64,000 nt of DNA from Phoenix dactylifera (lineage: Eukaryota; Streptophyta; Magnoliopsida; Arecales; Arecaceae), in the NCBI RefSeq assembly GCF_009389715.1, contig NC_052394.1, positions 21,578,899 to 21,642,898 of the forward strand. The letters run 5' to 3'. Below, in pieces: positions 9,597 to 46,600 of the stretch (position 1 is the stretch's first letter; every line of letters starts with the position of its first letter). The notes below the pieces were generated by a model, which worked only from the letters and a program-made list of their open reading frames with translations, ran no database searches and had not been told where the DNA came from. Made by a program: the position numbers and the translations under genes.

Positions 9597-12500
9597 ATGG
9601 CTACTCTTCTCTGGCTACTCTTCTTCCAGCTGCTTCTCTCCTCAGCATCGAAAGCTCAGATGCCCGGTAAGTTCCATGAGATCTTATGCTGATTTGTATG
9701 AGAAGTTTTGTGGATGTTTCTGTTCTATTATTGTCGCTCATTTGGGCATTTATTCTGACATTTGTAGACTGTTCTAGCTGCAAGAATTTTGATTTCATGT
9801 CCGGAGTATTATAGTTCAACTGTATGCAACAACCAAATTTGGGTCTTAAAACTTAGAAAAGGTAAGTGGTGAAGTGAAATATAAAACCAGATGGAATTTC
9901 GAAACACTATGCATCTGAGGCTCAGTGAAACAGAAGAAAATTTCGAATCAAGTTACTAAAGGAGTGAGAAATGTACACTTGAAAAGGCATATGCGATTAA
10001 TAATCTTGTAGTTCTAATTAATAAGAAATATCCGTAATTATGTCTCACGTATAGCTCCATTTCGAATCCTAATGATCGTTTCTCCCAAATCTGGCTAATT
10101 TGTATGATATCAAAGCGTTTGTTAGGCTTGCTGTCCTTTAAATTTCACTTGTAATTCATCCTATCCACGTGATTACTTAAAATGATAGGACGGCACTGGA
10201 ATTTAGCATGTACTAGCAGATTAAGTATCCCAGCTTGTTGTTGATTCATTCCTACATGAGGTTCAAAGAATTTTTTTTTGAAAAAAACGAAAGTTTGTTC
10301 TTCTGCGTACTGTTATATACAACTCTCTGTATTGCTATAATATTGGGTCAATCTAAAAAATAATAATTTTGGTTCTGCTGCTTGAAATTAACAATCTGAT
10401 TTGACCAATCTCTTACCTGAATGATGATTTTTGAGACAGGTTTCGTAAGTCTGGATTGTGGAGGTAAAGATGAGCATACAGATGATATTGGGCTTCAATG
10501 GATTCCTGATGATCAATTTATATATGGTGGTCAAACTGCCACCATATCTAACCCAGGTGAGAACCCCAAGCAATACATGAAAGTAAGATATTTCCCTGCG
10601 GATAGCAGAAAGTATTGCTACACATTAAGTGTGAAGACTAGAACCCGCTACCTCGTAAGAGCAAGTTTCTTATATGGAAACTTTGACAAAAGTAATGTTT
10701 ATCCGATGTTTGACCTCTCTCTTGGGGCAACTCATTGGTCAACTATTGTAATTTCTGATGCAAATGTAATTGAAGTTCGAGAGTTGACTTTGCTGGCTTC
10801 TTCTCGCTTGATAAGTGTGTGTGTGTCAAATGCTACCACCGGGCAACCATTCATTTCTACCCTTGAGCTTCGTCAGTTTAATGGTTCACTCTATTATACG
10901 ACCTATGAAACTCAGTTCTTTCTCAGCCTATCTGCAAGAATAAATTTTGGTGCCGAGAACAATGATTCAGTAAGGTATGTACATTCAATCAGTTAAAAGA
11001 ATAATGTACAATTTTATGCTATGGTTAATTTTATCGTCGGCGTAAATAGGCTTTCTTTTTAGTGCAAATTGGCTGGCAATATTATATTCAGCATCATCCT
11101 CAATTGTGGAATTTTTCTATGCCTATTAAGTCAAACAACCATCCATGATCACATGGTGTTTGTACAAAACCTAGATGGAAGATAAGATCCATGAAGCGAT
11201 ATTTCATGGATCCCAGACCATCCAAAATGTGCACGGCTCAGTTGTGTCAAACAAAGATGTGTGTTGGAGTGGAGGCAACTCTTATTGGGGCATACTCGCT
11301 AATAAGTCATACACAAAATGGCTGAATGTGGAACCTAAATTCATACTTCATGATTAGGCTCAATTGCACTCAAATAAAACAAAAGGTTACAACTGGATTG
11401 CGTAATATATTATCTAGGTGTATGTGGATATTTTCGTTTATGTTCATGCATGTGTGCTAAGTGTGCACGTGTCTGTAATTTGTTTAGGTTTACACTGAAA
11501 TATTTACATATGTAGAGAACCACATCTACAACATAACATATTTACAGCAAGAATTTGCAACAGAAGATGCACAAATTGTATGTTATGCAATATTTAAATA
11601 TGTGGGGATGGTAAAGCATGTAAATGGCAATATGACTACCAAAAAGATTGGATAACAAATGGTCATAGTGCAAGATCTAAAATACAAAGTGAAAAGGATG
11701 CTATAGGACACAAAAACATGGAAGAGATATTGGAAGTGCATGGAAGTGCTAAAGCAAACGGAGCAGCAAAATTCGTGAAAGTCCAATTTACAGTAAACCG
11801 GTTAAGCAGTTGGGCTATAATTGGAAACGACATAAGAGAGGGGGGCAGGGAATGGAGGTGTAAAAAGTTATGGTATATCATTATTTTATATATTGGGTTT
11901 TTTCTGCTTTTGACACTGATTTCATGCAATAGCATATATTTCCAGCACTTTCTCCACATGTTATAATTGACCTAACATCTATATTCTTATCCAAAACTGA
12001 ACAAGTTGATTCACAGCATGGGCTGATTGAGTCACATGATTATTACATAATCTATATATACTATGAATATGAGCTCAAGGAGCAACAATCCTACATCTGA
12101 AGAGGGGGGTGGGAGAGAAAGATTCAGTACTTGGGAACCTTATGAATTACCACTGAAATTAATGATTACAGAAATAAAAAAGTCTACTAGCGTATTATTG
12201 CATTACAAGCACATTTTTCGCAACTTTGGTTAACTTTGTTGTGATGCTAGGTTTGTAATACAGGGAAAAAACTTAAAAAATGACATAACAACATATTCTT
12301 TTCATAGTTCTCTTGTGCATTAGCCATCTTACCACTTCCTTCCCTGCCTCGCGAGCCCCTCGCCCAATTTCTTTTGTGTGCATGTGCATGTGCTTGGCCT
12401 TTTGACTTGACTTAAGGGAACTCTTCATTATTGTTTCAGGTTTCCAGATGATCCATTTGATAGAATATGGGAATCTGATTCTGCAAGAAGGGCAAATTAC

Positions 12501-29227: not shown

Positions 29228-31337
29228 ATGCCGGCATCAACATTCTGGTCTGCTTCCCCTTCCAGCCTGAGTTTAAAGCTGCACCTAATCATCCATGAGA
29301 TTGGAGGTCTGCCCATGGACAAATTAGAGGATTGGAGCAAGAGCAGCTTGGTGGTGCAGATGGAATGGAGAGGGAGTGGAAGAAAATCTAGTTTCTTGCC
29401 CACAGCATTCAGAAAGAGTTGCACATCCAAACAGCCAATCCATCCCGATGGCGTTGTAAGCTGGGACGAAGGATTCGACCAAACCTGCAAGCTTAAGAGG
29501 AAGAACTCTCGGAGTTATAGAAGCTGGATCATCAACCTGGAAGTTCAAGTAAGGAAATCATCTATGAGCTTGATTGCTATAGAGATGAAATTTTTTTTTA
29601 ATGTTTTATTTTCATGGCAGATCGGAGATAACCAAATGAATCAATTTTTCTAACACTCTATATCTGGTCATCGGTCAGGAATATGATCAGGATTTAAAAG
29701 CGGAAGTTGTTGCCAAGACAAACATAGATATTGCTGAATTTGCCCCATCATACAAGGAGAAAAGAGTTGGAATTCCAATCATCTGCAACATCAGAGGCCA
29801 CACTGCTCAGGCCCTGCTGAAGGTAATATCACAAACAAAAGCTTGTAGATTCGATAACATTAGTCGATGATTTTTGTTTATCCGTTCATGCAAATTTGCT
29901 CAGGTTGAATTGCATTTTCTTGAGCTCGAAACAAAGGGCGGCAGCACTGCATTAAGACTGCCACGAGCTTTTAGTCTGCCACGCCCTTTTTCATGCGCAG
30001 GATTTCCACAAGACTATAATAACAGAATTCAACATCCAACCAGCAGTCTATCAAAGTATCTTTCTGAAGCAGAAACCTCATCAGATGATGAGCATGAATT
30101 AAATTATCGGAAGCTATCAGTGACTAATATCCTCCTTTTTGACCAATTCAATGGCAAGATTGAAGATCATAAGGATAAGAAAGATCGGTATTTCCAGGGA
30201 TCACCTGACAGGATCAAACAGCAGCCTTCCCTTGTCAGGCTCCTTTCATGGAACAAGATGAAGGTGAGTTTCAAAGCAGTAAACTACCACAGAGGAGCAC
30301 CACTCCTGAACAAGGCATGCGGAGAAGATGGCGGCGACGACATCGACAGCGAACGGCGCCGCCGATCGATCAGCCAATTCTTGGCACTTTCACTAGAAAC
30401 TGAAGTGCATCCTGAGGGGAAGCCACAGCCTTTGGGATTTGAAGATGATGGTCGGTTTGAAGTTGGAAATTGGCAGAAGAAGAGAGTGGCAAGCAGAGAT
30501 GGGCAGATGGAGCTTGTAACTGATATATTTCTTGCATCCATTGATCAGCGCAGCGAGAAAGCTGCAGGTGGAAGTGCCTGCACAGTTATTGCAGTCGTCA
30601 TCGCTGACTGGTTGCACAACAATCCAAAAACTCTGCCGTTGCGATGCCAATTTGACGAGCTGGTACGTGAAGGATCCTTGGAATGGAGAAAACTCTGTGC
30701 GGATGAGAACCACAAGGGGAGATTCTCCGACCATCACTTCGACCTCGATACTGTATTAGCAGCAAAAATACGGCCACTGTCAGAAGTCAAGAAGCTGTCC
30801 TATGTAGGATTTTTCAGCCTCGACGACATGCCCGACAGTCTTCAATTCCTGCAAGGGGCCGTGTCCTTTGACACCGTATGGAAGGAGCTCGTCCGCGGCG
30901 ATGCATCTAGAGAGGGAATATACGTTGCAAGTTGGAATGACCATTTCTTTGTTCTCAAAATAGAAGACAATGCCATTTATTTGATCGACACCTTCGGCGA
31001 AAGGCTGTTCGAAGGCTGCAAACAAGCATACATTTTGAAGTTCAGCAAAGAGAGCGTGGTTTACCGACGGCATGCAGATTCAGAATCCCAAACTAGAGAC
31101 TCTGATGAGCGCACTGAAAGCATTCCACATAGTGAAGGAATGGATGAGGATGGTAATTCATCTAAAGAGGTGGTCTGCGAAGGAACGGCATCCTGTAAAC
31201 AATACATCAAGGAATTCCTCGCAGCTCTTCCACTGAGAGAACTTCAAAATGAAATTAAGAGGGGGGTGGTGGAAGAAGCCATTTTGCATCGGCAGCTGCA
31301 GATAGAGTTCCACTACACAGCTCCTTGTTATACGTGA
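29228..31337 (+). CDS. NT-C2 (EEIG1/EHBP1-type) domain protein, 3 exons
   Basis: Exons 29228-29548, 29679-29822 and 29904-31337; 1899 nt, 632 aa. The first ~155 residues form an N-terminal C2-like domain (KLHLIIHEIGGLP, VVQMEWRG, SWDEGFDQTCKL, WIINLEVQEYDQ, GIPIICNIRGHTAQALLKVELHFLEL) of the kind that binds membranes or membrane partners. A low-complexity acidic linker follows. The C-terminal half (about 290-632) contains LSLETEVHPEG, GGSACTVIAVVIADWL, LVREGSLEWRKLC, HFDLDTVLAAKIRPL, SWNDHFFVLKIEDN and YLIDTFGERL, as in Arabidopsis At5g04860/At3g11760-type proteins of unknown function. The start is uncertain: ATG 29228 lies only ~17 residues before the domain, with an in-frame stop at 29183, and the AAAACAG before 29208 could be an acceptor for an earlier exon. 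Confidence 0.83.
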
Positions 31338-34300
31338 ACTTAGACCATAGAAAACGGATATAATATGAATTTGTTATGTTTTGATGGGCAAACAATACGC
31401 TGATTGTGTAATTGCACTGCATGCATACGATGTTAACTTTTACAGTCAAATTCCAACAAAATCAATAAAATGCTGTAATGTTAAAGAAAATATTGATAAC
31501 AAAGAGAATATGGGAAAATTTGATCGAGCAGTTTCGGTTATTCGATTTCTTCTGATGTGCCCAGCAAAATTCATCCGCACCATGTCAAAAGTGAATTGCG
31601 TAAGTTTATAAAATAAAATGTCGATGGTGGCGTTTAGAGTTTGGGCCGCTCAGAAAATTCAAGTTATTTTCATACTGAAGTAGAATAATTCTCTTGAAAA
31701 AACACATTCATAGATTAAGTGACACCATTTCCTCCTCAGAGAGGACTAGAGGAGGGGCAGGGTGGGGGGATGATACCTACTTATTTCCCTTGCCTAATGG
31801 ATTGGCAGCTTATCTGGCTAGATCTTTCACATTAGGGAGTGAAGATCCAAATGAAGCCCTAAACTTTGGATCCTCTGAACGAATTTTAAATTCTCCCTGT
31901 TTACGAATTATTCACCCCTCCAATCCAATCTTTCTTTTGTACCATGCAGAATAGTTCATCCTGATATGCAATGTTATCATACATTTTTTGAAGTTGCATT
32001 TACTACTTTTAGGCCTTCATCTGAAAAAAAGAAAAAACTAGAATTTCTTACATAACCCATCCTCCTTTATGAAAGCCACTCTGATTAAGTCAGCTATATC
32101 CCACTAGGATTTCTTTCAACAATCAACATTATTGTAACACTTAGAAGTGCTGATTTGAGTGGATGACTATATATTAGTATCCTTTGACCATAAATCGCCT
32201 TGAAGGAATCCCATAAATTATCACGAGATTTTGCAAACGCTTGTTTGCATTCGCTGTTTGCTTGAGCTCTTCTGAACAAAATGGTTTCATGTTCACCAAG
32301 TCTCATTGCATAACATAGTTTATAAAATCATTCTTAAGAGAATAATTTTTAGTCTATACAAGTAATTTAGATAACCTTAGTCAACTTCTATCTCATAGTA
32401 TCTATCTATATAATGTGGTTAAGGCCTAAGGTAAAGAATTAGATTAATCTTTCCTTCACCAAGAGCTGCTTCCATATGGTAATTAAAACTAATCATTATG
32501 TTTGTAAATAAAACTAATCAAGTAGTGTTAGATCGTAAGGGGAAAAAAAATGCTAGGAAAGTGATTTTGAAGAAGTTACAAACTCTAGCTTCTGGCTTTT
32601 ATGAGAATTATTCAAATACCACCCACCTTCCCTTCCTCGGTTCCTATACAAGCATTTGAACGAAACCCCCTTGTCACATCCTCTCTTCGATCTTCTAGAG
32701 TTGTCTCTATTTGATCACTCCATATTTAGCAGTCTTATCAACTAAACAATATCCTTCACGCAGTGGATTAGCTATTAGTGCCCTTTAGATTCTAAATCAA
32801 GTTACATCCTCACTCGTGTAGGGAGGAACCAAAGAGATATTGGGTTGCAGTGATGCTGCTGTACCCAGTATTCATGAATTACCCATTCGGTTGAAAATTT
32901 GATTCATCTAATCCCTAAGTCTTAGAGATACTAAACTACATGACCGTTGCTGTTTCCCTTTCCATATTAATCATAACACTCCGGCATCCGTACAAGCCTT
33001 TTGGGCTGACTCGATTATTATGATATTGCAATTTTCACAACGTGCATCCATCTTTGTTTTTCTTAGATCTTATAGATTATCCTACAATCTACAACATAAA
33101 ACATACCGAACTAACTTCAATCATTTTAGAAATTTTTCGATGAAACCATCAAGATACGCATCGATCAACGGTTACCCTCTCTCTGTCGCTCGCTTTCGCT
33201 CTCGCGCACAATATAAGTCACAAGCCAAGGCAAGCCTCCGCCTTCGCCTAGGTAGCCACCATTTGCCTGATCGATCTTGGAACCCCCAAATCATCATGGC
33301 AGAATCACTGTTTACTTGCAAAAACTGCCTTCACTAGACGACCTTTACGGCCCATGAGGGAACCATGTCGCCTGAGTTTTGGCAGCAACACCGCAAGGCC
33401 CACCGAAGAACACAGAAAAACCTCCACTTGAGGTCCGCAAACATGCACGTAACCAGAAACAAAACAGTCCCATTTAACAAAAACTCAACATAGGTAGTTC
33501 TCGAGCATCAGAGCTCACCCAACTTGAGAGAAAACTCTCGCTTTTGAGCATGAGGTTGCTTGATTAAAACTTGCTTTCTCTTACCTAGCACAGATCCTTT
33601 AATCACAATTTTATCAGATTTCGCAGATGGTCCATTTTGGCATGCGATTGCGACATCATCGCTCTCACATCCTGCAGAACTTCCTCCGGGGAAGTACAAG
33701 ATACTGCATTGAAGATCAAATACCTCTTGTGCTCGAGAAACAGTAGGTGCACATCAGGATCAGTTGTGAAGCAGTTAGATAGAGATCAATATCTCATTAA
33801 AAATATCGAAATAGTCTATACTTACTAATTATAAAAAAAACACTATGTACACTTTGCTGTGACATGTCTCATTTGTTCAGATTGAATGTCATCCCAGCCT
33901 TCACAAGAAACAAAATGGCATCTATAATACAAAACCTCTTCAGAGCCTGCCTCCAATGGAAACCAAATATACGAGCACACAACTGAAACTGACACCCTTC
34001 CACACTGCCTCTGGCGGACACTACCAGCATAAGAACTGCAAAACTTTACTCTGAACAGTGTCCCTACATGATTGCAACAATGACATCAGACTAAATATCC
34101 CTTCAGCAAATATTGAAAATACAGGAATTATTTACAACCTTCAACGGTCTAACTAAGATTCTTATTAGCCAAGCTCATTCTGGAAGTGAATAAGATTCCT
34201 ATAAGCTAGCTACCCTGCCCCATAAACATAATCATAATCATCAAACCTTTTCAAGTAGCTACCCTACTTCGAAACACATGCACACACAGTGCAAACAGTT

Positions 34301-34680
34301 AAAACACAGTTATGAATTTTTTTGACCAGCTGCCAATTATTTGGTTGTATAGAGGTTCAAAAATTTACCTACTAGTCTTGCAGCTGAACTAGAGTGCCAT
34401 TTATGTACATCTATGTTGCATGACATTCAAACCATAATTGCAAATACATTAAGCATAAAAGGATACGCTCTAACCTGAGGTCCCAAGCTTTTCATCCCTT
34501 TTTGTTGACTAGTTAGTAAGTAGAAACACAGGGGCGCACAGGGGAATTACCAAGACGCCCATGATAAGAAAATGACAAAGACCCATCTGACCTGACACTG
34601 CTTGATGCCCAAGACACACCCCTAACCCTAAACCTGATACAAACTTCACCATAGGATTCCATGGTAACTTCAAAGCAATG
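31338..34680. other. Convergent spacer downstream of the NT-C2 and CNOT4 genes
   Basis: AT-rich, with no exon I can defend strongly. A minus-strand open stretch at 33699-33508 has balanced composition and is followed by a good donor (CTAG/GTAAGAG), so a stray or captured exon there is possible but unrecognised. Confidence 0.45.
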
Positions 34681-35320
34681 GAATTGTGGGTCTATATAGC
34701 ATTTATTTAACAACAATTAGCTAAATAGCAATCCTCTAATGCAATCACTTAGAAAGCCATTCTATCAGCTAGGAGTAAATTTTATCAAAAAGCAATGCAA
34801 TATATCTTAATGCAGACAAGCAAAGTATTAGTAGGGTACAAAATTTTTTTGGCGTACCAACACTTGATACGCCATTCATACTGAATACTGGTACAGAACC
34901 GATACGTTACAGCACGCCCCGTACCACCCAATTCGGGCCGGTACGTTAAACCATGCAGCCAACAGTATTTATCATTTGAGTTAAACTAGGAAGGTAATTC
35001 TATATTTTAAATTCTGCAAAACTAAGATCTCTTTCAACTGCCCACTGACATGAATATATATAATTTGTGGGTCTATATAGCATTTTTCCAATAACAATTA
35101 ACTAAATAGCAATCCTCTAATGCAGTCACTGAGAAAGCCATTCAATCTGCTAGGAAAAATTTTTATCAAAAAGAGATGCAATATATCTTAATGCAGACAA
35201 AAAAGCTATGCCAACTACTTATGATTCGAGTTAAACTAGGGAGGTAATTCTATATTTTAAATTCTGCAAAACTAAGATCTCGTTCAACTGCCCACTGACA
35301 AGAATTATATAAAAGATATA
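34681..35320. repeat. Tandem duplication (about 250-bp unit) with a GTACC element in one copy only
   Basis: Copy 1 (about 34681-35071) and copy 2 (about 35072-35320) share GTGGGTCTATATAGCATTT, AATCCTCTAATGCA, TATATCTTAATGCAGACAA, GGTAATTCTATATTTTAAA and TTCAACTGCCCACTGACA. Copy 1 is longer by about 130 bp because of the insert at 34828-34958. Confidence 0.88.
34828..34958. mobile_element. GTACC-rich element inserted in copy 1 of the duplication
   Basis: Contains GGCGTACC, GATACGCC, GGTACAGAACCGATACG and GGCCGGTACG. It is absent from copy 2, which reads straight from the GCAGACAA block to CCAACTACTTATGATT and so serves as an empty site. Related in style to 15382-15569 but more diverged. Confidence 0.65.
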
Positions 35321-35722
35321 ATAGGAAACAACACTCAGCATGCTATTGATATGCTTAAGAACATTATGGTGGAAATCATTTCCCCAAAATGTCTTATCCA
35401 CCCATAAATTGCTGGATCATACCACCTGTCCCTATGTCCTAGTAATCATCAAGGAATGCAGCTGCATTCTTAGGGAGCCAGTGTTGCTTACTAGAACAAC
35501 TCATTTGGATATAACATATGAAATGAAACTCATACCTGTTGCCAAAGAGGCCTAAATCTCATGTACTCTTTGATGAAGCTCATTCAAGGTTTCAGTGACA
35601 GAAATGTCAATCAACAACCAGGTAAAATCATCTGCTCTGAAGAACCAACTATTTTCCATGGCTAGAGATGCACTAGGATACATGAAAGACAGGTGAAAGC
35701 TGCCCCCGGCATCAGACCAGCA

Positions 35723-37594
35723 TTACAATCCAAATGCTCTGTTATACAGATCACCTGAGCTTGGCATGTGAAACTTATGTTCCCCATTGCCAGAATAGTA
35801 GTTATTTAGCCCAAACCTCTCGTTACTCAAGAACTCAGGCATGCCCATTTCACTGCCATTTCTTACATCATTCCAACCACCCCATTGGCCATTTGAAATG
35901 TGTGCGCTTCTGGGTCGTTGGAGTGACATCTGTGCAAACGGAGACAGATTTCCATGGTTTTGGGCTAAAAGACGAGATGTAATATAAGCATCATTTAAAG
36001 GTAAGAATCTATCCCCAATATGATCTGGTATTCTTAGATTTTGATGAGAAGAGATGGGTTGCTGCATCAATAGCTGAAGCCTTGGATCACCATCAGAAGG
36101 GCTAAACTGTGAAGGGAAATCAGATTTTGAACTAAACCCTGAACTATTCAGTCCAAGCGGCATTCGCCCTTTGCCCACAGCAAGTATTGCTGGATCAATG
36201 AATTCCACGTCATCTGGATTTCCAGTTAAATGCGCTTGATACTGATTTCCAAGTGAAGGACTACCCAGCAGATGGTTATCTGATGAGGGAGGAAAAAAAA
36301 ACAAAAAGATTAAAAAAGAAAAATAGTAGTACAAAGAATCAAGGCAAAATATGTTATGGGGTACCCAGTTCATGCACATTAGAAGTCCCCTTTACCATGT
36401 GCAACAAGGGGATGAGTGCAGTGCCTGAATGCTAAGTCGCCAGGCCAGCATTGTTGGCACTTGGCACAAACCCTTCATGTGCACCAGTGGATGCCCCAAA
36501 GCAATTTCTATTAGAAAGTGAACAAACCAGAGTATGTTGAATCATAAGCTTGGTTGAATCTATCTTGTGATGAAAAGCCTGGAGGGGGAGCTCTACTTGG
36601 TGCCGAAAATCCAGGTGGTGCTGCTATTTTAGCCCTCGAAACTCCTTCAAAGGAAGAGGATAACGTGCATTAAGAGAGAATGCATAACTAAAAAAGCAAC
36701 ATATCATAAATCCGTATGCAAAGATAAGATACAACCATCAAGCAAGATAATATCCGCATATCAAATGAGTCAAGGTATCATAAAACCATCCACATATCAA
36801 AGGGGGTCAAGGTATCGTAAAAACATTAACAAGTATAAGATAGAGTTATAAAAGGGTTAGCTTCACTGTAGTATAGAAAATTCAAATCTAAGCACAAGAT
36901 GGTCCAAACAGGGCCGGCCCAAGCCTTAGGCGACCGCGGTGACCTGGGCGGTTGCCTAAGGCCCCGGCCCAATGGAAGGCCCCCACCCAAACTCGTATCT
37001 ACACTCTACAGTGAGTGAATCACAGTCGCAGAGCAACGGCTACCTCAACAAGACGTGGGAAAATCAGGGTTAGAGGGTGAGTCCGGAGTTGCCGTTCGCC
37101 CGTCCCAATCCCATCGCCCATGGTGAAAAGCTATAAGCCTACACCTCTGGCTCTACACCTCTACCTCTTCAGCTCTCCTATATCTTCCTCCTCTGCTCCT
37201 TGCCCCCTCATCGTCCTCCTCTTCTGCAGTTCTGCTTCACCATCTTCACCTTCCACTGGGGTTACAACTTACAAAAAGTACCGCCGACCGTAGCTAGTCC
37301 TCAGTCCTCACCTCATCATCCTCCTCTTCTACTTCTGTGCTTCACCGCACTATTCGCCTTCGTCGTGGGTCCACTCTATACCATAAATCCTAAAACCCTA
37401 ATCCTAATACATATTGGAAACGGAACATCTCTCTGTCGATTTAGATCTGGTCTCGTTGGAAAATGGAAAGCTGATGTGTTCTGAGTATAGCTCAGAGCCT
37501 CAGATCGTTCGAGCTTTAGCTTTCTTGATGGTTTTGTTCGGAAATATTTTTTTGCTTTGGAGAGCCCATGTGAGGCATTTTAATACTCGTTCTC

Positions 37595-37645
<51 letters not shown>

Positions 37646-40600
37646 CGGAGAGGTGGGTAGCCGTTGGGAAAGTTTATTCATAGAAAAATAAATGGGTTGA
37701 ACATCTATATTTGGGTTTTAATTCTTTGACTGTACAGTGACGAAGACTCTGAACAGGGGCATCTCCGAGTTTGTTGTGATGGTGGCAGATACAAAGCCAC
37801 TTGAAATTCTTCTACATCTTCCTCTGCTTGCAGAGGATAAGGTATATATTTTCTCTGATAGCTTATTAATTGAAGATTGTCATCCTTGCTGCTGCTGTTA
37901 TTTTTCTGTTTTGTGCCTGTATGTGGGAGTTGAGGTGTGAAGTGAGGATGGCGCCAACACTAGTGACAGCATAAGCTTTTATCAGAAAAATAAGTTTCTA
38001 CCCTTCCAAGTAACTTCAAATGGTTGGTAAATAGATGGTTCCTAAAGTATTTTGCATTTATTAAAAAAAATTCATTATTTTTCAAAAATAAAAGGCCTTC
38101 CTTAGTGAGTTCGCCTTAAGCCCCCAAATGCATTGGGCCGCCCCTGTCCAAATGGTAGACCTCAGACCAATAAACAGACATTCAGGATAATCTCTGAAAC
38201 AAGCTAAAGATCAGACTCATTCAAACGTTTTGGCTGTTGTGAGCTGAAAGTATGTGTCCAGACTTGGGCCTAAAAGAGAAAACAATCATTAAACCAAGCC
38301 AGAAAAAGTTGAACTCAAAAATTTCAAATTCCACAATACACATGTGAGATGGAAAGACTATCCCCCCAACCCATGCAAAGACATTTCATCAAGTTAAATT
38401 AACTTCTTGTTGCTAGTTACAATACGATCACAAAAATGAATTGGGTCCAAACAGAAAGAAGAAGCAAATGACAAAAGATTGAAAAGCAGGGGACTTGAAA
38501 TAAATGACATCATCAACCTGAGGCCCCATGCATTAAAAAAATGGCACAAGATAATTGGTTTGCAGTTTAACTAAGAGGGAAATGAGGTTAAGTATAAAGC
38601 TATAAAGCAAGCATCATGACAAAATGAGAAGCTCAAAAGAGGAGGGCTGAACGATGACAGACATCACTTGGTTGCCCAAAGTGAGAATGGAAGGGGAGTG
38701 CTGTGCAGGAGGGGGGAGGAGATTTCATGGAGGAATGCTAGATATCATGCTGCTTATAGTTTGCACTAGCAATAAAATTGATCTAACTAAAGAAGCACAC
38801 GGGACCCAATAAATGAGTTGCTGAGTGCTACTGTATTATCCCCATAATAACTTTTATCCTTCAGTTTTGTTTGGCAATGCATTTGATGATATAATTGGGC
38901 CCATAACTTGTTTTCTTAATGATCCAAATCAAGGTATTGAAAAAATTATAACTATGAATAAGCAAATATCTCTCATGTTCCATGCCTAGTCTCAATTTAA
39001 AGCTGCTTAAAAATACAACTACCACTTGCCTACATATATTAGGACCAAAAAGTAAGAAAAATAAAGATCACATGGAAAGTCTCTAGAACCAACAATTATC
39101 AGCACATTAGAAACCGCAAACTGGTTTGGATGCAACATATCATGCGTGCCACCATTAGTGAACAGTCCAGTAATCATAATGTGTTAAAAATATCAAAACA
39201 AAAATATAGAATCACGTGTGAAAAAGAAATTAAGCACGCAATACCATAAAAAATAAAAGAAAAGGAAGCAAGGCAAACAGCAGGTGGCAAGAAGGTCAGA
39301 ATGACTAGACAGTTGACAAGTAAATATTAGTTCAACATATAATAAATCTCCCTTTTTGAAATTAACATCAAAAACTCACCAAATCTATCAGAGGAAATAG
39401 CTAGATTGCTGTTGAAGACAGCATTGGGACCCTCAAAATTATTGAATTGAAACCCATGTTGGGAACCATCTCCAAAAGAATCCTGCAAAGATGAGCATAA
39501 TTTCTGTGCATTACCACTGTCTCTAAGAGAAGCCTCTAGACCACCTGCTTGACTTTCTTGCCTTGCAAATGAAAATCTGGATTGATTGCTATTAAGAGAT
39601 CTCCATGAACTCGATAATTTCAATGACCTGTCCTGCTTTTCAGTTTCAGCTAGCAGCTTAGAAAAATTATTTGCTGAGGATGAGTCATCCCATGGATCAA
39701 AATCTAGTGACAATATATCCGAAATGATGCTGCTCTCTCCCATATCTACACTTGCTGTTTTGTCAGAAGTAGCTGCATCATCATTTTTTCCTAAACATTT
39801 TATCCTTTCTTCAGAGCAGTTCATCTCGGGACTTTCAAAAACCTTACCACTATTAGAGAAACAGCTTAGCTCATCCTCTTTGTGTCCATTGTATAGTGCA
39901 GATTTATTTTCTCTTGATGTAAATGAGGCCATGTCTGCCTTTGTCACCATAGTTTTACTATCACCAATATATGTCGAGTGCTTGATTGCAACGCCATTAT
40001 TCTGAGAACTATAACTACATTGATTTGCACTACTGTGAGAATGATGTAGATAAGGTGAACATGATGGCTGATTATTATCATCATCTTCCTTCTCGATTCC
40101 TGGAGATGTCAAACCTTGCTTTTGCGGATCCAGATCCCAATCAGATAATTCATTTGCAATACATGCATCAGGCAGGACCGAGGCTCTGCTCGGTGGCTCT
40201 GAAGATAAATGTTCAACCTCATGTTTAGGTTGACATTGTTGAGGGCTTGAAGATAGATCAGACTTTGAAGTCTGATGCTTGTCCATGTTTGACCGACCAT
40301 GCTCAAGATGGTTATCAATATTAACAGAAGACAAGCCCAAACATAAACTCTCTATGTTACCATTCACAGTTATGCTACCTTTAGCAGTTTTATCAGCACT
40401 AGAAGATCGCCCATCAGTACCTTTAGGAATAGGGTCGTTCATTGACTCTGTGTAGCTCCCAGCAAGAGTGGTGCCTCTTCCCTTGTCTTCAGCTGCCGGT
40501 GCCAGAAGTCTAGATAAGCAGCTACCATATTTTTGAGAAGTACGAGGTGCATCCAGTACATCATCAGGCGACAAATCTGACCCAGATGTCCGGAACTCCT

Positions 40601-43600
40601 CCACATTAACAGATTTGAAAGGCTCCGATTTCTTAGACGTTACAATCATATCATCATTCCATGCAGAAGGTACAGAAGCACAATCTGCATCTGTAAGACC
40701 TTCTGATGACATCACTGTTCGGCACTCCTTCACAGAACCAGATTTTGATGGTTCCGAGGATCTAGATATGCCATTCATAGGCATTACATGCCTTCTTTCT
40801 GGAATCTTCACTGTTGTAACTACATCATCATGCCACGCAGAAGACTCTTTTGTGCTTGCAGTCGATGATGAAAGCAAGGATGTACTGTTTAACATTTCTA
40901 CTTTCTGTTTAACAGGTGTTTGTGAGCATGCTGTACTTACAGCTGGAGACCGGCAATATGAACTGCGAAGTCCCCTGCAACATGTCATAATTTTAGCAGT
41001 ACCGTCTTTTGACAAGATAAAAAAGAAGTAGACGACGAAGAAGAAGAAGGAGAAGAAGAAGAATAGAAAACAACATACCATGAAGCAGCAGCAGGTAAAA
41101 TAGTAGGCTTTCCAGCACTACTGTTAGGAGGAGAACCTTTGGCATGGCTTGGAGCATTCTGTACAAACAAATAGTTCGATTAACATAAGAAAATCAAAGC
41201 AGAGCTATAGAAAACATAACCAGCACCAATGTGGATCAAAAGAAATAGTACTACAATGCAACCTCGAATGCAAAAGTTTGATAAAGGATATACATTTGAG
41301 ACACTCTTGATTGCTTGTTTGCCTGTAACTGTCCCACTGCTAGAGAAATCATCTACTGGAGGCGGCAACACATTCCCCAAGCGTCGTTGTGAATTATTTG
41401 AAGCAATTTGCGGGACCCTACTCCTATTGAGCCATATCAGATGATAATCAAACCATAGAATTAGGCAAAAATAAGGCAAGAACAGTAGCTTGATCAGATA
41501 ATATGTTTATGCTAAGACAAAATAATATTTGTAAAAAATGCTGCAGCCAAATGCCAAAGTAAACATTGTCATCTATTATAAGATGAACTGAAAGCATGCC
41601 TAGAAACTAAGGACAAATAGATATGAAACTCCAAACTGTTAATCCATGTAATGCTTTCAATTAGTAGGACTTGCTGTCTTCTTATTGATTTTAGAAGTGA
41701 TCACATGCATGTTACATGATAACGTCAGATGTGCTCTTCTCTTGCAACTGCAGTTACCACATGAAATTTGTGTGTGAATCAAACAACTCAACTATCCAAC
41801 AAGAACAGAAAGTTAAATAACAATGAAGCTGCATTTGATTATCAGACCCTCCTCTTGATATTTGCAGTCTCAACTAGAATCAATATGTTTTCATAAGAGT
41901 GTATTCAGCATCATTCCATATCATCCTATATAACAGACAGTGAAATCATTCAAAGACATGATGATGCCACATCAGCAACCCACATTTCCATCTATGAGGA
42001 GACAGGAAAGCCGAACCCTCCAATTCCACCTACTCTATTACCTTCACCACCACTAGAAACAGCAATGCCCCCCACCCCCGACCCCGCCCAAAAAAAGGAA
42101 CAAAATAAATAAAATAAATAAATCTCATGCATCATTAGTGCAAGGAATATGACACCAATATGACTGGAAAATTCAGCCTGCTAATGCAAAGCATCAAGCT
42201 TAGTGTTCCTAACAGGATTTGTTTGGCTCAAATCACACCATCAAACATACTGGGATCAACATGCACATGCACCAGCAACCATCTGATCTAATCTCACCAC
42301 CCAAATCATAGTTGACATTATCCTTGCACAGGATTTTTTCCTATTACCCTTCCATAGGATCTTTTCCCAACTCAAACCACTTAAAACTTACTGGAATCAA
42401 CTGATTTAATATATTACATAATTTAGTAGCAAGAATCCTCCTTTTAATGCGGTGCACCAACTTCCCAAGCTAGTCAGAAACTCATCCTTCCATCAGCTTC
42501 CTAAATTTTTTCTTATTAAATTATTTTAAGAAACCTGTTTCCCCATGCATGCAATCAACCTGCTTCCATAAGTTATCTGAACTCCCGAACCACATATGTG
42601 TCAAGCTTTTAGTTCTTTTCAATTTGTAAGACAGCTCAAATCAATACATCAAAATTATTATAACTGAATTACCTAAAAAGCAAAATTTGAACACTTGAAG
42701 ACCACTATATTTGGTATACCATGCACAACACCATCTTCGCTATAATGTTATCCCAGCATGTTTTCAAATCATAAACACCCAGAAAATGCAGAAGTCGATA
42801 CAATGTGCAGTGCCTGCATGCTATTAATGATTCTACCAAGATTTCGAGCAAGTCACATGAAGTACAGTACTTATGGCATTTATTCCTACAGCATAAATGG
42901 ATATCTTGTTATGTGAATACTTAGTTGGCAGGTAAGCGACAACAAGTGAGGATTCATCTGCACAAACTTCCCTCCTCATCATATGATAGAAGAATTCCCA
43001 TGTCAACATAATTCTGTTATCTGTAAGTGCATCATGATAGTAACCAGCCGACAAAAAAAACCTGGGAAAATGGACCAAAGTCGACTTCACATGTGCAGCA
43101 GAAATTGTTTGAATGAAATAAGGCAGCTCTGATTCAATAACCTTCCAGTATACATAAACATATGGTCAGAATAAATGTAAGATAGCTTGGAGGACAACTA
43201 TCAACATAAGATAGGGTACGGTAGTATAGTGCTAGCTCCACATCAATCTCCCTGAGCTTGGAAATTTGGGGCCTCACAATTGTTGGTGTTGATTAAATTA
43301 CCATAAAAGTATATAGATAAACATGCATAAGGAATTGCTTGTCACATGAAGAATGCTCTCATTCATCTTTTCTAAAAAAAATCCTCATGTATTGATAGAT
43401 GATAACATCAAATGACTAATGCAGAGATGTTATAGATGTATGCAATAGATGAATGAAACATGAATCAAGGAATGTAAAGTGTAAATTCTCAATCATTTTC
43501 AAGATCAGTCCATATTCAACATCAGGTTTATGCAAGACAAAATATATCCACTCAAAAACCCTGCTAAATTTGGGATAGTGCAAAATAAAACCGGAATAAC

Positions 43601-46600
43601 CCTCGTTATTCACTTATGCTCTAGAATAAAGTTTCAGAGGCAAGACAGTCTAGAAAGACTTTTTCCCCACATGTTCCACTCAACCCAGATAAAAGTTTAG
43701 CGAAAGAGTAGAATAGTTTAAATCTGGTTTATCCTCATTTTTGGCCCTGAGTTTTCCATTATTCCTCTTAAACTGGATATAGCTGTTCCCGAACCAAACA
43801 GAGCCAGCTTGAGGTTCGATCTCTGTCCAGCACATGCATCCATAAAGAGAATAGATATAGCTGCAATGACTCATGATTAATTGCAATAAAAAAAAATCAT
43901 CACATTAGCACAGGATAGCTATTAAAGCAGTGACAAAGAATGCACAAGAAAATGCTTGCCATACAACAGATGATGCTCATGCTGATTTTTCATTTTCTAA
44001 TGAACAACTTAAACTATATATTGCTTAACAAAACCATCAAACAAACTAAATATGGCAAAGATAGAGTAAATATGTGTCATAGCAATTGAGAGGAAAGCTA
44101 AGAACAAAGTCAAACCTCCAAGCATCTTCAAGTTGACTACATTATTGACTCAAGGATTATCCACAACAGTATATCTGGACTTTAAGATTCAAACTATACA
44201 TAACATGTATCCACATAGAGATAGATGGGTAATTGATCCTACTTGTATCGACTAAAGAAATTGTGAAGTGCGAGACAAAGAAATTACAATAAAAATACCT
44301 TGTATAAGCTGAAATTATCTCATCCTTAGTGAAGCTATCCTCTTGGCTACCAATGTCATGCAAATATAGACAATCTGAATTGTTGCAAGCCTGGATTAGT
44401 CAACAACTACTCAAAGTGAATTGAAGGAAGATAAAATCCAGGATTACTAGATGGTTAATATTAAAATCGATATAGCAATGCAGCAGTGTCCAAACAAACT
44501 ACTTTTCATACCATATTTCTCAACCAAGCATGGCAATACTTCGTAGTACCAAAGCAAGCTCTGCAATTGTAAACTCCAGTGTCACAGAAATGATAGAATA
44601 ACAATGCAATGGTCTAGCAAATAAGAAGGTACATCACATGATTACCTCAAAGATTTACCTTAATTGTGCACAGCATGAATACATGAATAAAAAACACAAT
44701 GATGTAGCTAATAAGAAGGAACATCATATGCTTACCTCAAAGATTTACCTTCCAAAACAAAATTGTGCACAGCTTGAATACACCGAATGGCTTCCTCCTC
44801 TCTAGCATATGTTATGTACCTGATCCAGTCACAAACTCATACTTAAACAGTCCAAACTAGTGAAAGACATCAATACTCTATTTCAGGAGACCAAACAAAG
44901 CAACTGCATTGGGTCCTCTTTTTAATTTTTCAAGCTCTACATAAGAGCATTAGTTCTGAGCAACATCAGTTTAAATGGTTTATGGCATATAAAGCAAGAA
45001 CTATTTAGTCCCTAGTTTGCTACAGTTGTTTTTTTAAGGACAGCTTCTTCAGGTTGAGGTCACATTCAAACTTTACAATGAGGACATCTACTTATTAAAA
45101 TAGTCTTCACCATAGTTTCTGTATGTACCTATTCCTAATTCTTCTGATGTCTTTAGTCACCTTCTATAGTTTAGGATAATAGTTTATGTTCTTATACTGC
45201 TATTTTTAGATGTTCACAACATCTTAACACTTCTCAATACTTAAAAACCTATTTACATCGTCCTTTGCAACTTTCTGCAACATCTGATACCTACTCCATT
45301 AACCTGAATCAACTTCCACTACTAGATCATTAAGGTTGATTCAGATTACCCTCATTCATGCAACTTTCCTCGCAAACATATCTGCCCTTCGATCATGCAC
45401 ATGATAAACCGACCCAACACTTTTTCAGCAGTCAACTTGGTCGCCACAAAGGAAGAAACTGAAGTCCTTTCTCCATCGAAGAAAATCCCAATAAGAACCC
45501 AGTAGTTTCAGATTTCCTAGCAAAAAGCAAGATTTCGCAGTATGCCTACATACTTCATTAGATATGCATTTCCTTTTGATCTGCCTAAAGCCAACAACAA
45601 AAAGAACACCGAGAGAGACAAATGACATGTCATTAGCCAAATTATAAATAGGACTCTCAATCAAGGGATATCCAAAAACATCGTTAGTATATGAATCCTC
45701 CTTAAAGATGCAACTCCGCTCCTTCCTCATTGAGCCCAATAGGTATCATTCTTGCAATTAAATGAATTGGAACTTACAGGCTCATTGAAATGTAATGCTT
45801 GTTTCCTGCAGCTCCTGCCATTCTTAATTCAGCACTCTGAGATTTCAGCAAAAGAGACAATATACAGAGGGGAAGTTTACACTATGCAGGTATTGTGCTC
45901 ACATTATCCTAGTTATCATTAGTAAAAACACTTCACTCTCTCATCCTTAATGAGAAACAACTATTAAACTATCGAGTCAATCACTGTATTTGTCACAGCT
46001 TGGGAGGCCTTCCCAGACAAATGTTAAAGGGTTAAAGATTTGGCAAACATATATAACTTTACTCAACAATTACACGTTTGGTGAGCTTTTCAAGATTTGC
46101 TTGATAGTCCAATAAGGATGGGCCCCATGTACCCGCATATGATTTATTATAACACACCTATATCGATTTGTTAATTATAAATGTCCTTTGGCTAGTCATG
46201 GTTATTATGTTATATATCTACCATTCATGGTTACAGACCAACATGTTCACGGGTTGACCCATATAATTACGCCACTATAGAAACAAGCCTGTCTAACATA
46301 AACAGGTGAGAATGCATTGTCGACCATAAAGAATTCCATGCAATTCTACAGAAAAACCTTCTAAATTTAGAAAATCATTTAACTATGCTCTATATATCTA
46401 TTTAAAATTATTGAATACTAAATCGGAAATAAAGGAAACGTGGTCAAAAGAGATTAAGAAAACATGGCCAAGTGGAGCTTATAGCTTCCCTACAAAAGGA
46501 GGAAAAAAAGGTGCATGCTCAGTCTGTAGATACTAACACGCCATAAAAACTGAGAGGTAAGTAGAGCGACATCAGATGCATCAAACAATATGAGCATATA

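Follow-up and report, generated by a model that had tools for sequence, protein, structure and literature searches.

How does a complete exon of SNU13 come to lie, in antisense orientation, inside an intron of a CNOT4-like gene of the date palm, and what carried it there? The window, that is, the whole 64,000-nt stretch of DNA analysed (C3:21578899-21642898 of the searched assembly, which comprises 773 Mb in 2391 contigs), contains at positions 36909-38146 a 1,238-bp non-autonomous transposon of the hAT type. Judged from its sequence, its assignment as a Pack-hAT is well supported. The best explanation of the whole, to which we give a probability of roughly 0.92, is that a Pack-hAT family captured SNU13, in the simplest case a single time, spread while being trimmed, and left one copy in the CNOT4-like intron. 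The relevant features are listed by window position.

36645-39379, minus strand: intron of the host CNOT4-like gene that contains the element, its limits placed by visual inspection of splice signals and open frames
36903-36908, no strand: left flank repeat TCCAAA, a partial target-site duplication
36909-36922, plus strand: left terminal inverted repeat CAGGGCCGGCCCAA, with like termini in relatives
36909-37367, plus strand: left end and subterminal region of the transposon, partially matching (about 68-70%) non-SNU13 elements on C7, C120, C4 and C67
37368-37553, plus strand: piece A, matching two near-identical loci on C8
37554-37695, plus strand: piece B, matching C2:11636417-11636513 (minus strand)
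37696-38045, plus strand: SNU13 fragment (end of an intron, exon, start of the next intron), 92% identical to the gene on C15
37738-37841, plus strand: complete SNU13 exon ("exon 3"), open and with its splice sites kept
38043-38146, plus strand: right subterminal region and terminus of the transposon, with a TAA common to SNU13 at the junction
38133-38146, minus strand: right terminal inverted repeat CAGGGGCGGCCCAA
38147-38152, no strand: right flank repeat TCCAAA
47377-47796, minus strand: open frame with part of the host CNOT4-like RING

The short termini CAGGGCCGGCCCAA and CAGGGGCGGCCCAA are inverted, identical at 13 of 14 bases, and begin with CAGGG, the terminal motif of hAT elements. TCCAAA stands on both sides (GTCCAAA if the final G of the right end is included), giving a flank repeat of 6-7 bp as against 8 bp for hAT elements; two bases on one side were probably lost from the duplication of this copy. 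Neither the sole open frame of at least 100 aa nor the exon frame matches a transposase. The inverted ends, the 8-bp duplications of relatives described below, and this null result bear out an earlier note on this DNA, which had proposed a hAT-like element devoid of transposase. A search of window positions 30000-45000 against Rfam at gathering scores returned 0 matches.

The 104-nt exon is open, preceded by AG and followed by GT, and the best solved structure for its frame is human SNU13/15.5K (E 2e-13), confirming the earlier description of a complete SNU13 exon with both splice sites. Against NCBIfam, four proteins, including the transposase of the relative L061 discussed below, yielded only an L7Ae match of the exon frame, below the cut-off. 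Alignment to the genome, as the earlier note had suggested, uncovered parental-type SNU13 genes and further copies. The 350-bp block at 37696-38045 is 92% identical to the closest of these genes, on C15, and 83% to the one on C6, and at both loci the preceding exon, the captured exon, and later exons are all present. Gene capture (transduplication) is borne out by the C15 match, and the SNU13 gene on C15, or an ancestor thereof, would be the source. The element thus combines a non-autonomous structure with a host gene fragment of traceable origin, as is expected of a Pack-TYPE transposon.

More of the donor had been sought inside the element, and parts of the introns flanking exon 3 are indeed there; the donor leader is not. 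The CT-rich stretch upstream, at first suggested as that leader, matches the C15 and C6 SNU13 loci only through GA/CT microsatellites, and this reading was rejected: the stretch consists of the transposon left end followed by pieces A and B. The last 55 bp of piece A are 96% identical to the C8 loci, while its first 112 bp match at about 70% with gaps. Piece B matches C2 in reverse at 96-98%, with an expanded GA repeat splitting the match. Three open frames around the two pieces had no Pfam match that would mark them as known genes.

When the assembly was searched with the SNU13 block, all 15 candidates were scored and 15 matches resulted, namely the genes on C15 and C6 and 13 transposon copies. 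These copies occupy 12 sites, with two on C521 (L011, L012) counted once; there, 6.2 kb occurs twice on one contig, 46.9 kb apart, at 99.7% identity and with flanks alike, which is a segmental or assembly duplication. Presence at several sites after capture is a further mark of Pack-TYPE elements. A lack of copies with the same ends, or an exon forming part of a complete SNU13 gene, had been named as grounds for abandoning the capture reading; neither applies, given 13 copies with related ends.

Exact 8-bp target duplications flank five of the 13 SNU13-bearing copies (C17, C1, S1, S6, S7). They are inexact in S2 and S4 (7/8 bases) and in C16 and the two C521 copies (6/8), S3 and the window copy have a shorter or shifted flank repeat, and S5 has lost its left end. 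Among 16 SNU13-less relatives fetched, six carry exact 8-bp duplications (L023, L024, L028, L056, L058, L061), L057 and the C8/C928 locus (L025, L026) have none, and in seven (L027, L050, L055, L062-L065) one end is missing or was not located. The duplications of C1, T_C120, T_C67 and C16 were judged from flank sequences where the automatic scan had missed or misplaced them, including a false outside pair for C16; with the slack of that scan, random pairs reached 8/8 in 2 of 2000 trials. The duplication length characteristic of hAT elements is therefore found in the family, the window copy itself having 6-7 bp. A giant element at C8:18838875-18892183 / C928:5993-59418 was considered and rejected, its ends lying about 53 kb apart and its flanks sharing no duplication. 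C928 and C8 are 98% identical over 4.3 kb around the left end and most likely represent one locus.

The relative L061 on C1 is coding. It spans 4,044 bp with GTTTAATC on both sides, and its ends are 76% identical over 76 bp and 82% over 104 bp to those of the window element. Its transposase is spread over two open frames split by one stop, the first of which matches DUF4371 (E 4e-22); a hAT dimerisation domain was not found in the second. DUF4371 is, we assume, linked to hAT transposases, and on that assumption L061 unites matching ends with a hAT-type transposase. The assembly contains at least 150 DUF4371 matches (150 of 193 candidates scored), of which at least 147 exceed the curated threshold, and the right end of a second, decayed transposase element, on C1263, is 87% identical to that of the window element. 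The window element would accordingly fall in the hAT group with DUF4371 transposases, which we take to be the one called Tip100-like. With that group the family shares CAGGG-type ends, 8-bp duplications, and the DUF4371 transposase of L061, whereas the window element, itself non-coding, contains foreign DNA. Pack-MULEs have MULE ends and 9-bp duplications. They too bring together fragments of several loci in one short element, but they belong to a different superfamily, as the hAT-type ends and 8-bp duplications here make clear. Three 1.9-kb SNU13-less relatives of L061 (L056, L057, L058) are close kin of the left part of the S copies; L056 and L058 are internally deleted compared with L061, and two of the three have exact 8-bp duplications.

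The SNU13-bearing copies display four structures. The C16 copy, the fullest at 3.3 kb, contains a stretch of SNU13 that begins upstream of exon 2 and continues 243 bp past the end of the window block. The C521 copies keep the SNU13 upstream region and exons 2 and 3. The window, C17, and C1 copies retain exon 3 alone, open and with both splice sites intact, the C1 copy having a shortened left end. The seven S copies contain half of exon 3.

From this comparison the window copy appears to be a deletion derivative. When aligned by BLAST with C521, piece B meets SNU13 at one point in both the window and C17 copies, and the C1 SNU13 copy aligns with the window through the same junction. The comparison supports one common deletion in this subtype that would have joined piece B to the intron preceding exon 3; because of it the subtype would lack the SNU13 upstream region and exon 2. 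In C521, the interval between piece B and exon 3 holds 29 more bases of B, the CT-rich upstream region of SNU13 (probably the leader), exon 2, and about 270 bp extra. In L011 this extra stretch lies in the captured SNU13 intron and adjoins a long T run, and a short repeat of SNU13 sequence comes after it.

On the right, SNU13 ends at a TAA common with the transposon in the window, C521, and S1 copies; a few bases are missing and the TAA is absent in C17 and C1, and in C16 SNU13 continues for 243 bp before the right end of the transposon, which is truncated. In the S copies a 1,061-bp left part meets SNU13 midway through exon 3. This left part is 91-94% identical to L055-L058, where it occurs without SNU13, and about 77% to L061. 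A tree places all 13 copies on one side of a branch, with C16 splitting first. This single-capture branch has moderate support, with values of 83/68 and a presence in 78% of bootstrap trees.

The following course of events would account for these structures. The comparison supports a capture of the SNU13 stretch by a related element, from the C15 gene or an ancestor of it and in the simplest case once, after which the fragment spread in copies with differing left ends and trimmed interiors. At the start, two related elements may have been neighbours in SNU13, the first upstream of exon 2 and the second within the intron that follows exon 3, with their outer ends used jointly. Transposase supplied in trans by a coding relative, for instance L061 on C1, would have moved the copies, and repair would have produced deletions and swaps, some at short common sequences. 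The window copy would then have landed in the CNOT4-like intron, there to be transcribed antisense and spliced out.

The use of two neighbouring elements is suggested by the C16 copy. Directly left of SNU13 it carries CATTGGGCCGCCCCT, 15 bp equal to the end of the family's right terminus minus the final G, a match that arose by chance in 0 of 2000 simulated sequences. Its SNU13 segment (locus L014, 4339-5545) lies between this inner right terminus and the truncated right end. Excerpts of a study of maize and rice explain Pack-hAT families by the fusion of neighbouring insertions, and CATTGGGCCGCCCCT may be a relic of an inner right terminus as in that model (PMC8903248). This step is put forward conditionally because the relic is short and the left part of C16 has no standalone match. 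No further right-end similarity occurs upstream of the 15 bp, and a standalone left part was not found among the four related loci fetched, two of which contain the C16 left part and no clear right end while two match inner pieces only.

Capture could alternatively have occurred by template switching during gap repair, which would gather scraps of unrelated loci. Such a proposal concerns the capture step only and is compatible with the rest of the Pack-hAT explanation. It would suit an element that unites pieces matching three loci (C8, C2, C15) and has a common TAA at its right junction, but the remnant of an inner right terminus where C16 meets SNU13 would not be expected from gap repair alone, and as the route of capture template switching remains a tentative second choice. 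Whatever came first, gap repair may account for pieces A and B and for the S-type swap.

The C16 copy has two further peculiarities. A 1.07-kb insert in its captured SNU13 intron (L013:5400-6466), with ends GGCCCCGTTTGG / CCAAACAGGGCC and TTA on both sides, resembles what we take to be a PIF/Harbinger element. In its left part, L013:3680-4245 contains GATGACGAGAAG before GTGAG, resembling the end of an exon, and is similar to other loci on C11, C544, C495 and C99; it is perhaps a further captured gene.

SNU13 seems to have been captured more than once in this genome by different transposons. A search with the SNU13 protein also detected exon fragments at C1:26.01 Mb, on C328, and at two places on C2. 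Three of these four were fetched (C1:26.01 Mb, C328:198 kb, C2:17.38 Mb), and in each about 540 bp, breaking off midway through exon 3, are 91-93% identical to a SNU13 locus on C273. The elements carrying them (L052, L053, L054 with L069-L071) have the end CTTGTAGTG in all three cases and the left end CACTACAG in two. The two with both ends measure 1.7 and 1.9 kb, one flanked by AAT/AAT and the other by GAG/GGG. Such ends with 3-bp flanks are presumably the marks of a CACTA element, and apparently a CACTA-type superfamily independently captured another SNU13 paralogue. Nowhere in the window does the CACTA end pattern occur.

As for the host, minus-strand open frames lie on both sides of the element, and the RING reconstructed by joining two exons matches NOT4/CNOT4 structures (E 2e-14); a single exon as query found no solved structure. 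The insertion in a CNOT4 intron, as proposed earlier, is consequently upheld for a CNOT4-like gene, as is the antisense placement of the exon, on the plus strand of a minus-strand host. The joined flanks of the element are 69% identical to C12:6124429-6124748 across the insertion point, and the CNOT4 exons there are 88% and 81% identical to those of the window. This paralogous locus is without the element and also without 12 neighbouring bases, and with these also absent it could instead reflect a loss of the element.

Whether the captured exon serves any purpose can be addressed through its substitutions. The window copy differs from the C15 gene at 4/104 exon and 23/246 intron positions, an exon rate about half that of the intron, which is expected even under free drift because the exon of the C15 gene is itself constrained. 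Against C521 the window copy has 5/104 exon and 16/246 intron changes. Among the five copies with a whole exon (C521 taken once), 7 of the 10 pairs show less divergence in the exon than in the intron and 3 show more. Of the four changes in the window exon, each a C>T or G>A in the alignment, three are non-synonymous. These small numbers would fit decay with little or no constraint; weak constraint is also possible, the exon changing more slowly than the intron in 7/10 copy pairs.

Three functional proposals have to be set against this background. Transcription of the CNOT4 intron might generate RNA complementary to SNU13 mRNA, and small RNAs from it might lower SNU13, as the earlier note had surmised. 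The exon is antisense to the host, and 51 of its 84 21-mers occur exactly in the C15 exon and 24 of 84 in the C6 exon, but the substitutions look roughly neutral and intronic RNA is normally removed, making this a very improbable source of regulation; silencing of SNU13 by the window fragment seems possible on paper only. Use of the captured exon as a coding exon on the sense strand of the element, yielding a chimeric or truncated SNU13 protein, is barely credible. The open exon and intact splice sites of the window, C17 and C1 copies would permit it, but most changes in the window exon alter the protein, exon 2 of C521 contains a stop, C16 has lost its AG acceptor, the seven S copies have only half the exon, the last SNU13 exons occur in none of the copies' loci searched with SNU13 protein, and no start or partner exon was identified. 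A coding function thus appears unlikely from sequence features. Likewise highly unlikely is a combined reading in which hAT and CACTA-type families captured different SNU13 paralogues, C16 preserves a relic of the hAT capture, and the scattered fragments, the one antisense in CNOT4 among them, provide RNA that tunes SNU13.

The window element is a clear example of an already described process, and its main value lies in a readable history. Capture was earlier characterised as better known from Pack-MULEs than from hAT elements; capture by the element stands, while excerpts of two papers already report hAT elements with gene pieces, in grapevine (PMC2528002) and in maize and rice (PMC8903248). 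According to these excerpts, the Pack-hATs of maize and rice likewise have hAT ends, 8-bp duplications, and gene pieces inside (PMC8903248); they come from grasses, whereas here one named gene can be followed through several palm subtypes, and a relic of the inner terminus may survive. The Hatvine-6 hAT family of grapevine, as excerpted, similarly has a variable interior matching host exons and introns, but its elements have a common transposase coding sequence (PMC2528002), and none was found in the window element. Literature searches that combined date palm with hAT and gene capture listed nothing relevant; for transduplication of NHP2L1 by transposons, with some of the names of SNU13 covered, no title among the matches listed dealt with it. 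This palm case of hAT capture can be read as probable steps, namely capture, trimming on the right, exchange of the left end, loss of exon 2, and multiplication of a recombinant subtype, with the C16 copy as a testable relic of its beginning. The data at hand give no sign of a consequence for the host gene or the plant. Elsewhere in the window, positions 10421-10996 encode a malectin-like domain, probably of a receptor kinase.
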